Below are positions 724 to 7,392 of a stretch of 7,392 nt of DNA, piece by piece. Below the pieces are notes generated by a model. The model searched no databases. It worked only from the letters and a program-made list of their open reading frames with translations, and was not told where the DNA came from. A program made the position numbers and the translations under genes. This DNA comes from Candidatus Tectimicrobiota bacterium (lineage in GTDB: Bacteria; JACPSX01): the NCBI GenBank assembly GCA_016193065.1, contig JACPSX010000067.1, positions 1 through 7,392 on the forward strand, written 5' to 3'. Positions within the stretch are counted from its first letter, which is position 1, and the number at the start of each line of letters is the position of its first letter.

Positions 724-1529
724 CGGACCAGTTCCGCCGGCGGTGCCCGGAGCGCGCGCTCGCTGAAGAGGTCGGGAGAAAGCTTCAGGTTATAGCGGAC
801 GTTCTTGAAGACGACCTCGGTCCAGTGCCCGGACTGGGCGTTCTTCATGAGCCGCTTCGTGATCGTCCAGAACCCCTGAACGTTTTCGGTTTCCTCAGCG
901 GTGAAAACGCGCGCCCGGTCGCCGCGCCGGTCGGAGTGCTCCACCTTCAGCGGCAGCCAGGTGGTCCTGTCAATCCAGGAAAGCTTCCGGCTGAAGTCCT
1001 CTCTGGCAGGGTCTTTCGGAATGCTCTCCACCACATAGGCGTCCCGCTCTCCGATCTTCTCCTCCCGGAGGAGTTTATGGGTGTCCTCCTCGGGCTCGCG
1101 GCCGGACACGTCCTCGTAGCTGAAGTCCGAGCCGACGAAGCTCGTGTGCTTGTCGCTGGCCGCGATCCGGCGGACCAGCTTGAGGGCTGGCACGTAAAGC
1201 CAGCGGTCATCGTCGCGCCCGAGGTAGGCCCAGACCAGGAGCGCCATGTCCCGCACATCCGGCGGCCGGTGGAAATAGAGGAAGTAGCGCTGCTCGCCAC
1301 CCAGTTGGAGGTTGCGCCGAGTCATCGTCAGCTCGCGGATCCGCTCGTGCCCCTCCCTGGAGATAAGCCGCATGAAGATCCTGGCCCGCATGTCCTCTCC
1401 CTGGTAGTACATGGCCAGGTAGGAGCGTCGCATGATCTCGTCAGCGGACGGCGCCTGGGCGCGAGCCGGTAATGCGCTCCAGGCGACCAGCATGATTCCG
1501 GCGATCCACAACCACACGGCCTTTTTCAT
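720..1529 (-). CDS. LolA-like outer membrane lipoprotein-sorting protein
   Basis: This encodes a 269-residue secreted periplasmic protein of the LolA-like fold (the lipoprotein-sorting family usually found beside RND/MMPL exporters), presumed to bind a lipid or lipoprotein in a beta-sheet cup. The chosen ATG at 1529 follows AAGGAGG at 1543-1537 with a 7-nt spacer and gives a clean signal peptide: MKK, a hydrophobic core at residues 4-20, and cleavage near ARA/QA (residues 22-26). An upstream in-frame start at 1562 would bury that signal. The family hallmark is at residues 86-143: FHRPPDVRDMALLVW, then DDDRWLYVPALKLVRRI, then SFVGSDFSYEDVSGR. Its ATG shares one base with the exporter's stop (TGATG), so translation is coupled. 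It is probably a periplasmic partner of that exporter rather than the housekeeping LolA, since no lolB or lolCDE lies nearby. The substrate is unknown. Confidence 0.9.
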   Translation of the reverse strand: MKKAVWLWIAGIMLVAWSALPARAQAPSADEIMRRSYLAMYYQGEDMRARIFMRLISREGHERIRELTMTRRNLQLGGEQRYFLYFHRPPDVRDMALLVWAYLGRDDDRWLYVPALKLVRRIAASDKHTSFVGSDFSYEDVSGREPEEDTHKLLREEKIGERDAYVVESIPKDPAREDFSRKLSWIDRTTWLPLKVEHSDRRGDRARVFTAEETENVQGFWTITKRLMKNAQSGHWTEVVFKNVRYNLKLSPDLFSERALRAPPAELVR

Positions 1530-3841
1530 CAACGTTCCTCCTTGAGCCTCTGGGTAAGCCACTGGGGAAATAGCGCGATCAGGGCTGGCAGGTAGACCAC
1601 GGTGGCCAGCGCCGAGAGCAGCATGATGGCGATCATGAAGGCGCCAACCGTGATGTACGGGGTGAGGCCGGCAAAGAGCATGACGGCAAAGCCCGAGGCG
1701 AAGAGAAAGGCGTTCCTCACGATCCCGCGGCCTGGGCGTGCAGCCGTCCAGACGAGAGAGCCTTTAAGATCGCGCGTCTCCCGGTAACGCTGTTGGAAGC
1801 GGCTCACGAAGTGGATGGCGAAGTCAATGGCGAGGCCCAGGGACAGGGTCGAGAGGACCGAGATGGGCATGTCGAAGTCCTTCCGGACAAAGCCCACGGC
1901 CCCGTAAATAAGGACCACGGTGAAGAGCAGCGGGAGGAAGCTCACCACCCCCCAGCGCGGCGAGCGGTAGTCCAGGATCAGGAGGAAGAAAACGAAGATG
2001 CAGGAGGCGATGAACCCCTCCAGCATCCCGACGAGGACCTGGTCGTTCCAGACCATGTTGAAATAGGCGATCCCCGCGGGCTTCACCTCGGCGCCGGGGA
2101 TCGGCGTGGCGGTAAGGTCACGCCGGACTTTCTCTAGGAGCGCACGGGTCTCCACTGCATTCCAGCTCCTCAGTTGGACCATGAGGTTCGCCTTCTGGTG
2201 GGGGTAGTCCACGAGGTTGTTAAGGTCCCGGGGGCGCGCTGCCATGCTGAAAAGGAGCAGCTCCTGGGCGACTGCCTCTTGCGAGTCCGGAATCATCGCG
2301 CGCGAGGGGCTGTTGTCGCTGAGAACCTGGTGGACGCGCTTCACCACGTCCGCCACCGAGACCGCCTTTCCCACAACCGGCTCTCTCTCGATCCTCCGCT
2401 GGAGCCCTTCAAGGGCCTTGAGAAACTCGGGGCGGGTTACGGCGTCCGACTTCTTCCCGTCGGCGACTAGGTAGAGCATGGCCGTCCCCCCGAGGTCCCG
2501 GCTCAGTTGCCGGTCCGCCACCCGGATTTCACTCCCGGGTTTGAACCAGGACACCATGTTGTTGTTGATCCGGATCTTCGAAATCCCCACGGCGGAGATC
2601 ACCAGCAGGACCACGCCCACCAAAGCCACCGGCGTCTTCCACGCCACGCAAGCCTGCCCGATCCTCCCGAGCCATGAGGAAGAGAGATCGTCCTCACGGC
2701 TCACCGGGATCGGTCGGCCCTCGCGGGCAAGTGCCAGAAGCGCGGGGACGAGGGTGAAGCTCATGAGGAGGATGACGAAGGTGCCGAAGGCCACCAGGAG
2801 GCCGAAGACTCGAACCGGGATGATCGGCCCGATCGCCAGGGAGGCGAAGCCCGCGATGGTGGTCAGATCCGAGAAGAGTACCGGGGTGGCTACGGCTGCC
2901 ATGGTCTGGCGGATCGCCTCGCGCCGGTCCCCCACCTCCCGCCGCCGGAAGACGAACTCGTTAAAGATATGCACGGTGTCGGTTGAGATGGCCATGAGAA
3001 AGACCGGGCTCATGGAGGCCATGATGTGGATCGGGATTCCGAGACCGATGAAGAGCCCCATGCCCCAGATGATGGCGATCATGGCCACCGCCATGTTGGC
3101 TCCGACCACCCACCAGCTCCGGAACATGAGGAAGAGGACCCCGCACATCACCATCCCGGCCAGCGGGGAGAAGAGCGCCATCTGGCGGAACATCTCGGCT
3201 CCGAAGGTATCCCGCGCCACGGGATCGCCCGCAATGTAGTAGCGCTCGGGACCGCGCTCTTTTCCTGTAAGCTGCCGGAGCCGGTCCGCGATGGCTTTCC
3301 CGTTGGCGCTCTTCTCGATGGGAATGTAGATGGCAGTCGCTCGCGCGTCAGTGGAGACCAGGCGCCCCGCCAGGAGCGGGTTGTCGAGAACCTGCCGCTT
3401 GAGCCCTTCGGCTTCGGCAGCATCATGCGGAATGCGGTCGAGGATCGGGCGTGCTTGAAGGACGCCGTTAGCTATCGAGACATCATTGACGGTGGGCAGG
3501 GCGACTACATCCCGCGCAATGACCCCGGGGAATCTCAGGATGGCATCGGTGAGCCGGGCAATCCGGGCGAGGATCTCGGGCGTGAAGACCCCCCGCTCGC
3601 TTTGGATTTCCACGACGATCACGTCCGGATGGAGGCCGAACCAGCCTTCCACCTGATCGTTGTACTGTCGAACGGGCGAGGTGATCGGGAGCATGTTCTT
3701 GGGGTCGGTGTCCGTCCTGATCCGGGGAAGTTGGCTCCCGAAGGCGAGGGTGAGAATGAAGACCAGGACCAGGACGGTGCGGGGATGGTCAGCACACCAT
3801 TGAACCAGGCCTTGGCGGAAGGATGTCCACCTCGCTCTCAT
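1529..3841 (-). CDS. RND-superfamily (MMPL-type) exporter
   Basis: This encodes a 770-residue inner-membrane protein with two tandem halves, the layout of predicted RND-superfamily exporters (COG1033/MMPL type). One membrane helix at residues about 21-37 is followed by a periplasmic domain (about 40-220). A five-helix block follows (about 221-372), with D288-T-V-H291 in its second or third helix. The second half repeats this: a helix at about 404-420, a periplasmic domain to about 600, and a helix block at about 603-757 with GLAIDFAIHF (D673, H677). The paired Asp/His positions are the likely proton-relay residues. The ATG at 3841 has GGGAGG 6 nt upstream; the open frame extends to 4006, but that extension overlaps selD and is not needed. 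It begins 13 nt after selD stops and ends in TGATG with the LolA-like gene. Family members include hopanoid and lipid exporters; the substrate here cannot be read from the sequence. Confidence 0.92.
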   Translation of the reverse strand: MRARWTSFRQGLVQWCADHPRTVLVLVFILTLAFGSQLPRIRTDTDPKNMLPITSPVRQYNDQVEGWFGLHPDVIVVEIQSERGVFTPEILARIARLTDAILRFPGVIARDVVALPTVNDVSIANGVLQARPILDRIPHDAAEAEGLKRQVLDNPLLAGRLVSTDARATAIYIPIEKSANGKAIADRLRQLTGKERGPERYYIAGDPVARDTFGAEMFRQMALFSPLAGMVMCGVLFLMFRSWWVVGANMAVAMIAIIWGMGLFIGLGIPIHIMASMSPVFLMAISTDTVHIFNEFVFRRREVGDRREAIRQTMAAVATPVLFSDLTTIAGFASLAIGPIIPVRVFGLLVAFGTFVILLMSFTLVPALLALAREGRPIPVSREDDLSSSWLGRIGQACVAWKTPVALVGVVLLVISAVGISKIRINNNMVSWFKPGSEIRVADRQLSRDLGGTAMLYLVADGKKSDAVTRPEFLKALEGLQRRIEREPVVGKAVSVADVVKRVHQVLSDNSPSRAMIPDSQEAVAQELLLFSMAARPRDLNNLVDYPHQKANLMVQLRSWNAVETRALLEKVRRDLTATPIPGAEVKPAGIAYFNMVWNDQVLVGMLEGFIASCIFVFFLLILDYRSPRWGVVSFLPLLFTVVLIYGAVGFVRKDFDMPISVLSTLSLGLAIDFAIHFVSRFQQRYRETRDLKGSLVWTAARPGRGIVRNAFLFASGFAVMLFAGLTPYITVGAFMIAIMLLSALATVVYLPALIALFPQWLTQRLKEER
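1537..1543 (-). promoter_or_regulatory. Shine-Dalgarno for the LolA-like gene
   Basis: AAGGAGG lies 7 nt before ATG 1529 and inside the last codons of the exporter gene. It decides the start at 1529 over the longer in-frame start at 1562. Confidence 0.85.
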
Positions 3842-3854: not shown

Positions 3855-4907
3855 TTAGGGTTCGACCCGGATTCTGCCTCTGGAGTCGGCAGTGATCTCA
3901 CCGATGAGAGCCCGGACCGAAACTCCAGCGGTTTCCAGTTCCTCCAGCAACTGTTGGGTCTTCTGTTTGGGGACAGAAATGAGGAGCCCACCGGATGTCT
4001 GGGCATCGGCCAGAATCAGGCGCTCCACTTCGGAAATCTCCGGGTTCCAATCAATAGCCCCTTCCAGGAATCGCAGGTTCGCGTAAGTCCCGCCGGGTAC
4101 GAACCCCTCTTGAGCCAGTTCCCGTGTGCCGGGAATCACGGGGATCTGAGAGCGGTAGATCCGGGCTCCAACTCCTGCCCCCTCGGTCATTTCATGGAGA
4201 TGACCGAGCAGGCCGAAGCCTGTGACGTCTGTGCAGGCATGGACTCCCACCTTTTGCATGGCTCGAGCGGCAGGCCCGTTCAGTGTACTCATGGCCTCCA
4301 CGGCCGCATCAACCGCAGCGGGATCGGGTTTTCCCTTCTTCAATGCAGTCACGATGATGCCGATTCCCAGGGGCTTGGTGAGGATCAGATCATCCCCGGG
4401 CCGGGCTCCTGAGTTAGTGACCACGCGGGCCGGGTCGATGAGTCCGTTGACAATCAGGCCGTACTTGGGTTCCTGATCATCAATGGTGTGCCCGCCGATG
4501 ATCTCGATCCCGGCCTCGGCTGCCTTGTGGGCCCCTCCTTTGAGGATCTCCCCCATTATGCTGAGGGGGAGGGTTCCAGAGGGGAAACCAATGATATTCA
4601 GGGCAAAGAGAGGCTCGGCTCCCATGGCGTAGATGTCGCTTAGGGAATTGGCAGCGGCAATTTGCCCGAAAACGTAGGGGTCATCCACAACGGGGGTGAA
4701 AAAGTCGACGGTTTGCACTAGCGCTTGATGGTCATTGATCCGGTACACGGCAGCATCGTCCGAAGTCTCCGGCCCTACCAGGACCCGAGAATCTCGTATG
4801 GGGGGTAGCTGGCGCAGAACCTGCGCCAGGTCCTGGGGACTGATCTTGCACCCTCACCCCGCCCCGTGGCTTAGGCTTGTAAGGCGGATCGATTGACTAG
4901 CTTCCAT
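3855..4907 (-). CDS. selD: Selenophosphate synthetase, selenocysteine-containing
   Basis: SelD makes selenophosphate from selenide and ATP, the selenium donor for selenocysteine and 2-selenouridine in tRNA; it is cytosolic. The full frame is 350 residues, the family's usual length. It runs from ATG 4907 (GGAGGG 7 nt upstream) to TAA 3857-3855 and reads through an in-frame TGA at 4856-4854 as residue 18. The N-terminus is IRLTSLSHGAGUGCKISP, aligning with E. coli SelD LTQYSHGAGCGCKISP as I recall it; the TGA takes the place of catalytic Cys17, and K21 is the catalytic lysine. Later motifs are DDAAVYRIND (50-59), TVDFFTPVVDDP, AAANSLSDIYAMG, GGHTIDDQEPKYGL, LTKPLGIGI, TDVTGFGLLGHLHEM and DAQTSGGLL near the C-terminus. 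A 297-codon version starting at GTG 4748 is an artefact: that GTG is Val54 of DDAAVY. The gene lies 46 nt after the TauE-like gene and 13 nt before the exporter. The host must have SelA, SelB and tRNA-Sec elsewhere. Confidence 0.95.
4809..4829 (-). promoter_or_regulatory. Putative bacterial SECIS hairpin in selD
   Basis: Within the selD message, arm CUGGCGCAG (4829-4821) pairs perfectly over 9 bp with arm CUGCGCCAG (4817-4809) around loop GUU (4820-4818). Bacterial SECIS elements are stem-loops inside the coding region just after the UGA, with a GU in a small apical loop that SelB binds. Here 33 nt separate the UGA (4856-4854) from the loop, toward the far end of the range I recall for bacterial elements. 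The hairpin encodes the ordinary SelD residues LAQVLRQL. Confidence 0.75.
4854..4856 (-). other. selD: Selenocysteine (UGA) codon of selD
   Basis: In-frame TGA at codon 18 between GGG (Gly) and GGG (Gly), followed by TGC (Cys20) and AAG (Lys21). Conserved SelD protein sequence continues on both sides in the same frame, so the codon is recoded as selenocysteine rather than read as stop. Confidence 0.92.
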
Positions 4908-4914
4908 TTTTTTG

Positions 4915-4920
4915 CCCTCC
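4915..4920 (-). promoter_or_regulatory. Shine-Dalgarno for full-length selD
   Basis: GGAGGG lies 7 nt before ATG 4907, separated by an A-rich spacer (C then six A). It marks the true start upstream of the in-frame TGA. No comparable site precedes GTG 4748, where an uninformed gene call would start. Confidence 0.8.
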
Positions 4921-4953: not shown

Positions 4954-5736
4954 TTAACCCTGGAACACACCCCACCACATCCGGATGGCCGCAAAGGCGA
5001 TCAGGAGGGCGAGCAGGGTGCGGAGCACGGGTGCTTTGACCCGCTGGCTCCACATTCCTCCCAACCACCCTCCGCCCAGTGCGCCGGCGCTTAGAAAAAG
5101 AGCCATTTCCCAGTGGATTTGGCCTCCAAGGGCTTTACCGAGAGTTCCGGCAAGGGCCGAGAGGAAGACAATGGCCAGAGAACTCCCCAAGGCCATCCGC
5201 GTGGGAATTTTCAGGACAAAGATAAGGGTCGGGACGATGATAAAGGCTCCGCTTTGACCCACGAGCCCGCCGAGAAATCCAATCACAAGACCTGAGCCGG
5301 CGGCAAGGAGGCGGCAAAAGCGGAGCTCTTCCCCCGGAGCGGGAGACTGTTCCTTTTTGGGTAAAATCATCAGGACGGCGGCCACGACGGCCATGCCGGC
5401 AAAGATAGCCAGTAAAGCTCTAGCCTCCGTGTGGCGAGATGCCAGGGCGCCGAGAAATGAGGCAGCCACGCTGCTTGTCCCCATGGTGAGGACCAGGTTC
5501 GGGTGCACGCGGTCGAATTGGCGGTGGGCGACAACGCCGGAGAGAGAGGCGGCAAGGCTCTGGACCATGGTAAGCCCGGCCACCACCTTCATATCGAAGG
5601 CGCCAACATGCAGGAGGGGCGGAACGTACAGAAGGAGAGGGGCCATGATGATGCCCCCACCAATTCCCAGAAGCCCTGCCAGGAGACCTCCGGCGAGCCC
5701 CAGTCCTGCCAGGCTGCCTGCGAGTTCAGCGGTCAT
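4954..5736 (-). CDS. TauE/SafE-family sulfite-exporter-like permease
   Basis: This encodes a 260-residue polytopic inner-membrane protein of the TSUP (TauE/SafE) family, whose members move sulfite, sulfonates, sulfoacetate or related small anions. It shows the family's internal duplication: a glycine-rich motif at residues 11-35 (GLGLAGGLLAGLLGIGGGII) and a second at about 147-175 (GLVIGFLGGLVGQSGAFII). About eight hydrophobic helices alternate with short loops, and a charged linker (about 126-142) separates the halves. ATG 5736 has GGGAGGG (5752-5746) 9 nt upstream; the alternative GTG at 5742 would leave only 3 nt. It is the first gene of the minus-strand row, 46 nt before selD, so co-transcription is likely. 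The substrate is not readable from sequence. Its position next to selD makes a selenium oxyanion or related anion thinkable, but that is speculation. Confidence 0.9.
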   Translation of the reverse strand: MTAELAGSLAGLGLAGGLLAGLLGIGGGIIMAPLLLYVPPLLHVGAFDMKVVAGLTMVQSLAASLSGVVAHRQFDRVHPNLVLTMGTSSVAASFLGALASRHTEARALLAIFAGMAVVAAVLMILPKKEQSPAPGEELRFCRLLAAGSGLVIGFLGGLVGQSGAFIIVPTLIFVLKIPTRMALGSSLAIVFLSALAGTLGKALGGQIHWEMALFLSAGALGGGWLGGMWSQRVKAPVLRTLLALLIAFAAIRMWWGVFQG

Positions 5737-5868
5737 TGACACGGTCCCTCCCGAGATCAGAAATCCATTCCGGCCCTACGCTACGTTTCTCTTTGAAGCT
5801 TGTCCAATCGGAAGTTTGGATAGAGCTATTTCTTCGATTGATAACTGCGGCGGCCTGAAGGGAGTGTG

Positions 5869-6033: not shown

Positions 6034-7392
6034 ATGATCAGTCTTCGAAAGATTCTGGCGTTTGTCGGAATTCTTGTCGTCGTCGCTGCCGCCGTTTTTG
6101 CGTATTTCGACTACAAGCAGGGGATCTGGTTCTTCAAACCCAAGGGGCTCCCCCTGTTGCAAACAGCGCGTGCCGCCGAGGATCTGATCCCCGCGAGCCC
6201 CGTCTTCTATCTTTCCGTGCGCGATGGGGCCGGCCTTTGGCAGAAAGTCAAAACCTCCAACTTCTATCAGAGGGTCAGTGGTGCGGCGAGTAAGACTCCC
6301 CGGAAAAGCTCGGGGAGCGCACCCTGGTCCCAGCCCGTGCAGCAACTGGAACAAAATCTCGGTCTCAAGCTCGACGAGCAGAATCTTCTGAAGCTGTTCG
6401 GCAAGAAGGTGGTCCTGGCTTTTTACGGTGTGGGCGAGAAAACCGGAGTCGACGGCCTGCTCATCACCGAGACGGACATGTCCCCGAAGGTTTGGGAGTT
6501 CTTTGTCCGCCTCAAAGGGAAGTACGGTAAGGACCCCATGGCTCCCCAGGCCGTTCCCTACAAGGGAGTGGAGATTTTTTCCTTCCGGAGGCCGGTCACC
6601 CGGGAGCCGGGTACCCGGCGCCAGGAGGCAGGGTTTTATGCCTTCGTCGGTAAGTATTTGTTCGCCTCCTCCCGAATGGAGCGCCTGAAAGGAGCCATTG
6701 ACCTGGCATTGGGAGCGCCCCCAGCCAAGTCCTTCGGCCCCAAGGTCAAGAAGGCCGCCGATGACCTTGATAAGAATCCGTTCCTGGTTTTCGTCGGTGA
6801 CAGCTCCAGGGCCTTGGAGTGGGTCCAGAGCGCCATCCCGCCAGCCCAGCGCCAGGTCTTCCAGGCTGGCGTTTTGCAGAGGTTTAAGGCGTTCGGGCAG
6901 GTGACCTTGACGGCTTCCGCGCAGAAGGGCCTCCTCGTCAAATCCCGCCTTGAGTTCGACCCGGGGCAACTGGCCCCCGAGCAGGCGAAGCGCTTTGTCC
7001 AGCCTCCTGCCACCTACCGGTCCCTTGCTTTCGTTCCCGAGGATGCCATTGCTTACGGGGCGGACAACAGTTTTGATCCCCGGACACCCGCAGGGCGGGT
7101 ACCCGGGGGCCGCAGCCGTACGGCTTCCGAGGCGGACACCCGCAAGGCGGACACCCGCAAGGCGGACACCCGCAAGGCGGGTACCCGGCAAGCTGCAACT
7201 TCCGAGAAGTTGCGATTCTCTCTGGAAAAGGAACTGGGAGTCAGCATCGAGCGCGATCTGATCCCTCTGGCGGGAAAGGAATGGGCTTATGCCTTGCTGC
7301 CGCCGGATGCCGGGAGTTCGTTCCCGGTCCCCCAGCTCCTGGTGATCCTGCAGATCAAAGATCGGGCCAAGGTGGATCGTTTTCTCCGGGGG
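6034..7392 (+). CDS. DUF3352-like membrane-anchored protein, 3' end cut by window
   Basis: This frame stays open from ATG 6034 to the right edge (453 codons). GGGAG at 6023-6027 lies 6 nt upstream of the start. The product begins with a short basic N-terminus and one membrane helix at residues about 5-24 (LAFVGILVVVAAAVFAYF) without a clear cleavage site, so it is probably anchored in the inner membrane and faces the periplasm. The rest resembles the DUF3352 family of unknown function: AAEDLIPASPVFYLSVRD after the helix, a GFYAFVGKYLFASS segment near residues 202-216, NPFLVFVGD at about 249-257, and LGVSIERDLIPLAGKEWAYALL at about 403-424. Residues about 350-390 form an odd Arg/Thr/Ala-rich insert made by 15-bp tandem repeats and palindromes. 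Another copy of the palindrome sits at residues about 192-195. The gene is divergent from the selD row, with no evident functional link. The family call is moderate; function is unknown. Confidence 0.8.
   Translation, partial: MISLRKILAFVGILVVVAAAVFAYFDYKQGIWFFKPKGLPLLQTARAAEDLIPASPVFYLSVRDGAGLWQKVKTSNFYQRVSGAASKTPRKSSGSAPWSQPVQQLEQNLGLKLDEQNLLKLFGKKVVLAFYGVGEKTGVDGLLITETDMSPKVWEFFVRLKGKYGKDPMAPQAVPYKGVEIFSFRRPVTREPGTRRQEAGFYAFVGKYLFASSRMERLKGAIDLALGAPPAKSFGPKVKKAADDLDKNPFLVFVGDSSRALEWVQSAIPPAQRQVFQAGVLQRFKAFGQVTLTASAQKGLLVKSRLEFDPGQLAPEQAKRFVQPPATYRSLAFVPEDAIAYGADNSFDPRTPAGRVPGGRSRTASEADTRKADTRKADTRKAGTRQAATSEKLRFSLEKELGVSIERDLIPLAGKEWAYALLPPDAGSSFPVPQLLVILQIKDRAKVDRFLRG
6607..6618. repeat. 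Palindrome CCGGGTACCCGG, isolated copy
   Basis: A perfect 12-bp palindrome inside the DUF3352-like gene, in a stretch encoding TREPGTRRQE. Its 10-bp core CGGGTACCCG recurs at 7096-7105 and 7178-7187 in the same gene. Confidence 0.6.
7081..7107. repeat. Palindromic repeat unit, first copy
   Basis: A unit running from CGGACACCCGCA to GGCGGGTACCCGG. It matches the unit at 7163-7188 at 25 of 26 bases. The sequence can fold: ACCCGC pairs with GCGGGT across a 3-nt gap. It lies in frame in the DUF3352-like gene. Confidence 0.6.
7131..7190 (+). repeat. 15-bp tandem repeat, three exact copies plus one degenerate
   Basis: GGCGGACACCCGCAA occurs exactly at 7131-7145, 7146-7160 and 7161-7175. A diverged fourth copy at 7176-7190 (GGCGGGTACCCGGCA) contains the palindrome core. 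Because 15 is a multiple of 3, the array stays in frame and encodes repeats of ADTRK, ending AGTRQ. Each junction can form a small hairpin, for example ACCCGC (7168-7173) with GCGGGT (7177-7182). Confidence 0.9.

Follow-up and report, generated by a model that had tools for sequence, protein, structure and literature searches.

A selD gene with a strongly supported selenocysteine codon, and a divergent second copy, in a Candidatus Tectimicrobiota genome

The window analysed here, a stretch of 7,392 nucleotides from a Candidatus Tectimicrobiota bacterium, is the whole of one contig (C120) in an assembly of 294 contigs that is 86.29% complete. On its minus strand lies a selD gene of the selenocysteine (Sec) type (positions 3855-4907; 350 codons from an ATG start to a TAA stop), recognised by translation, profile match and alignment to a structure chain. 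It is flanked upstream by a gene for a TauE/SafE-family permease (4954-5742, minus strand; Pfam PF01925, E 5e-47) and downstream by one for an MMPL/RND-family transporter (1529-3841, minus strand; profile matches). That the permease might transport a sulfur or selenium anion is a guess. Inspection by eye revealed no conserved neighbourhood of window-type selD among related loci, the placement of TauE next to selD was not repeated in them, and our literature search found no paper on TauE or phosphonate-type transporters beside selD. Elsewhere in the window, short tandem repeats with gcggacacccgcaag units lie inside the gene of a DUF3352 protein (7081-7200, plus strand).

Read on the minus strand, the selD frame (4907-3855) gives MEASQSIRLTSLSHGAG-U18-GCK21ISPQDLAQVL..., and its sole internal stop is a TGA at 4856-4854 (codon 18, predicted Sec). 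A first-pass annotation of this DNA had claimed that the SelD sequence continues unbroken through this TGA, that the TGA falls exactly at the catalytic Cys/Sec position, that an ATG with a Shine-Dalgarno sequence lies 5' of it, and that default gene calling would start at GTG 4748 and lose 53 residues. These points were all borne out. The solved SelD chain 3u0o aligns to residues 4-349, spanning the TGA with identity on both sides. The N-terminal HGAG-[C/U]-GCK motif of SelD is present as HGAG-U18-GCK21, and its Lys21 (4845-4847, minus strand, read from the frame) is presumably the expected catalytic lysine of the enzyme. Both the ATG and a Shine-Dalgarno-like run upstream of it, AGGGAGGGC (AGGGAGGG; 4912-4920, minus strand), were read directly in the sequence, and the table-11 listing of open reading frames offers only 4748-3855, with a GTG start and 297 aa. 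Translated through the TGA, the protein matches the equivalog TIGR00476 over its whole length at 416.8 bits (cut-off 125) and NF002098 at 402.6 bits (cut-off 299). Judged by its sequence, the gene certainly encodes SelD (selenide, water dikinase), and its product is predicted to synthesise selenophosphate.

Comparison with Cys- and Sec-type SelD, which the first-pass annotation had proposed, found TGC, TGT or TGA at the position of the TGA in the fetched homologue loci, with one exception. A SelD with one in-frame TGA was found in 27 of the 59 diverse genomes surveyed, the window's genome included.

Downstream of the TGA, codons 27-33 of selD (CUG GCG CAG GUU CUG CGC CAG) form a SECIS-like hairpin, CUGGCGCAG-GUU-CUGCGCCAG (4809-4829, minus strand; -15.5 kcal/mol), with a perfect 9-bp stem and a 3-nt loop. 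The G that opens the loop stands at +34 nt from the TGA, within the expected bacterial SECIS region, and bacterial SECIS elements are known to have a G in their apical loop (PMC1088965). Nine pairs arise in random synonymous versions of the hairpin with P = 0.0055. We compared hairpins whose loop begins with G, 17-38 nt past the codon, between 36 Sec-type homologues and 75 without the TGA (74 of them Cys-type and one other). Mean energy was -8.6 kcal/mol in the former versus -2.6 kcal/mol in the latter (p about 1e-12, a value that overstates independence because the sequences are related by descent), and hairpins at or below -9 kcal/mol occurred in 17 of the 36 versus 3 of the 75; that of the window selD is the most stable among the Sec-type homologues. 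The hairpins fall into two position classes, one whose loop lies at about +18 to +21 and one whose loop lies at about +34. A pairing score at these two positions still differed when close homologues alone were compared (p 0.0006 at 48% identity or above, 0.019 at 52% or above). The window selD belongs to the class at about +34 together with a subset of homologues, whereas in others the loop lies 18-21 nt past the TGA. On the other side, a fold of the whole 71-nt region is only modestly more stable than shuffled versions (z -1.04), and an Rfam scan of the window gave no match to a SECIS family and one sub-threshold chance match. The expectation of a SECIS element in the first-pass annotation is upheld by the stem, the loop position and the contrast between Sec- and Cys-type homologues.

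Of the complete Sec-decoding system that had likewise been expected in the host, selB is present (C175:269-2155; 370.6 bits, cut-off 242), but searches of the 86%-complete assembly detected neither selA, for which two models were used, nor tRNA-Sec. In the selA search, nothing recognisable turned up in the six reading frames preceding selB. For tRNA-Sec, an Rfam model, ARAGORN and an anticodon/T-loop pattern were used, with 150 of 508 candidates scored; the inspected Rfam matches were tRNA-Ser, tRNA-Leu, tRNA-Trp and the like, and the pattern matches were not real tRNAs. In all 26 of the other genomes with a TGA-containing selD, selA exceeds its curated cut-off, and selB is found in those genomes as well. 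Given this co-occurrence, together with selB and nine TGA-containing genes in the window's own genome, an assembly gap is the likely reason for the missing components, and selA and tRNA-Sec probably lie in stretches of the genome that are missing from the assembly. The selenouridine synthase SelU was not found in the assembly either, leaving Sec itself as the visible use of selenophosphate.

The genome appears to be rich in selenoproteins, with at least nine candidates. Apart from two selD genes, seven of 11 AhpC-TSA/thioredoxin-fold matches (L176, L177, L178, L179, L180, L181 and L182) are interrupted once, by an in-frame TGA in the active site (UxxC or equivalent; for example, WATW-U-PSC, MIHT-U-DSC and IWTG-U-PYC), each with a possible SECIS hairpin downstream. 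This list is a minimum, the search having been made on separate stretches of the genome. Other candidates were rejected: the best FdhA match has Cys (RLCHAPS) and lacks the in-frame TGA of a Sec-type formate dehydrogenase, and the one weak match to an FlpD-like selenoprotein is without TGA.

We consider it about 95% probable that the TGA at 4856-4854 is read as selenocysteine in an ordinary bacterial Sec-type SelD. A sequencing or assembly error, with TGC or TGT as the true codon of a Cys-type SelD, would fit the fragmented assembly and the greater frequency of the Cys type (76 of the 115 proteins in our tree set, many of them found by a scan with a Cys-only peptide pattern). However, a TGA takes the place of an active-site Cys codon in the second selD and the seven thioredoxin-fold genes too, the close relatives of the window SelD in the tree mostly have TGA, and the SECIS-like hairpin is strongest in the window selD itself. 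Because TGA-containing SelD recurs, and at the same position in the fetched loci, it is very unlikely that the codon arose by chance or through a point sequencing error.

Genuine termination at the TGA would make the gene either a pseudogene or one that starts at GTG 4748 and yields a SelD without the N-terminal glycine-rich Se-binding loop. The 297-aa frame is indeed open, and the failure to find selA and tRNA-Sec would be in keeping with such a reading; yet the match to SelD is unbroken over residues 4-53, which lie 5' of the GTG, the only stop is located at the Sec position and has an ATG with a Shine-Dalgarno sequence on its 5' side, and the genome holds selB and other TGA-containing genes, so that we regard termination as highly improbable. 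An internal in-frame TGA in selD could also reflect a genome-wide change of the code, with TGA as a sense codon for Trp or Gly. This is vanishingly unlikely: two genes of the window, the MMPL gene and a LolA-like one, terminate with TGA and use TGG for Trp, and the SelB and FdhA-like frames of the same genome have no internal TGA. Since TGA terminates two neighbours and is absent inside those frames, the genetic code is not reassigned; among the genes examined, TGA stands inside frames only at active-site positions.

Selenocysteine recoding of the selD TGA is strongly supported, and from the frame, its conservation on both sides of the TGA, the hairpin, the presence of SelB and the further TGA-containing genes we infer that Sec is actually inserted at residue 18. 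In the mechanism that we propose, the ribosome would pause at UGA codon 18 of selD, and SelB carrying Sec-tRNA-Sec would bind the hairpin in codons 27-33, resulting in insertion of selenocysteine and a 350-residue enzyme. Sec18 and Lys21 would then act in the conversion of selenide and ATP to selenophosphate, with which SelA would charge tRNA-Sec and so provide Sec for the window SelD, for its paralogue and for the seven or more selenoproteins with a thioredoxin fold. The self-dependent loop described in the first-pass annotation holds for Sec-SelD generally and was already known, the role of SelD in sustaining its own Sec supply having been discussed in 2006 (PMC1794560); it is not unique to this gene, however, since a second Sec-type selD is present.

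This second gene (L046:8409-9449) lies on contig C175, the same contig as selB. Like the window gene it has a TGA at the catalytic position and a hairpin of its own, in this case of 8 bp and in the position class at about +18 to +21 (loop at about +18). The two proteins share 50% identity, and the window SelD reaches at most 61% identity to any relative found. A tree built from 115 SelD proteins places the window copy among Sec-type SelDs from scattered phyla, alongside Cys-type proteins of about 745 aa; the C175 copy belongs to the other large branch of Sec-type SelDs (SH-aLRT 97 for that branch, many inner forks open). The long proteins in the window's branch (L018, L019 and L021) are probable members of the NADH dehydrogenase-SelD fusions (PMC4561486); they are Cys-type, in contrast to the window SelD, which is stand-alone and Sec-type. 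Two Sec-type SelDs occur in 4 of the 59 genomes (G000, which is the window's genome, G021, G031 and G044), and such duplication is uncommon, though not unique. Our literature search found no paper on two bacterial Sec-SelD paralogues.

The paralogues also differ in their neighbours: PhnD-, PhnC- and two PhnE-like genes precede the C175 selD, and the PhnD pieces beside it match TIGR04553, a putative selenate ABC transporter substrate-binding protein. The PhnD-like gene itself (L046:4970-5748) is split between two overlapping frames, so that it either contains a frameshift error or is broken. PhnD/C/E/E-like genes were also seen near Cys-type selD in several phyla (L104, L123, L125 and L132), and PhnCDE-like genes near Cys-type selD were found in Pseudomonas, Serpens, Chitinophaga and Thalassobium records. 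This suggests a conserved selenium-uptake link of PhnD/C/E/E-like genes with selD. It is possible, though we think it rather unlikely, that the two anciently diverged Sec-SelD paralogues are specialised, with the C175 copy serving Sec decoding from imported selenate or selenite, the window copy serving another selenium source or use, and each able to supply the other's Sec. A division of labour between the two copies is, at this stage, conjecture only.

Sec-type SelD has long been known, as the first-pass annotation had recognised for other prokaryotes. A 2006 paper (PMC1794560) listed FdhA and SelD as the selenoproteins with the widest distribution. Sec-type SelD accounts for 19% of SelD genes in 223 reference genomes (PMC4561486), and only one prokaryotic selenoprotein family is more widespread (PMC13188914). 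The window gene resembles bacterial Sec-type SelD/SPS2 (TIGR00476, NF002098) in being full-length, in having Sec in the N-terminal Se-binding loop and in having its SECIS hairpin within the coding sequence. Less ordinary are two divergent Sec-SelD paralogues in one genome. The present analysis adds a well-supported selenoprotein gene that standard callers truncate, from a deeply divergent lineage whose nearest relative among the compared genomes is no closer than the same domain. With two Sec-type SelDs in a selenoprotein-rich genome, this organism offers a setting in which one could test whether SelD paralogues divide labour between them.
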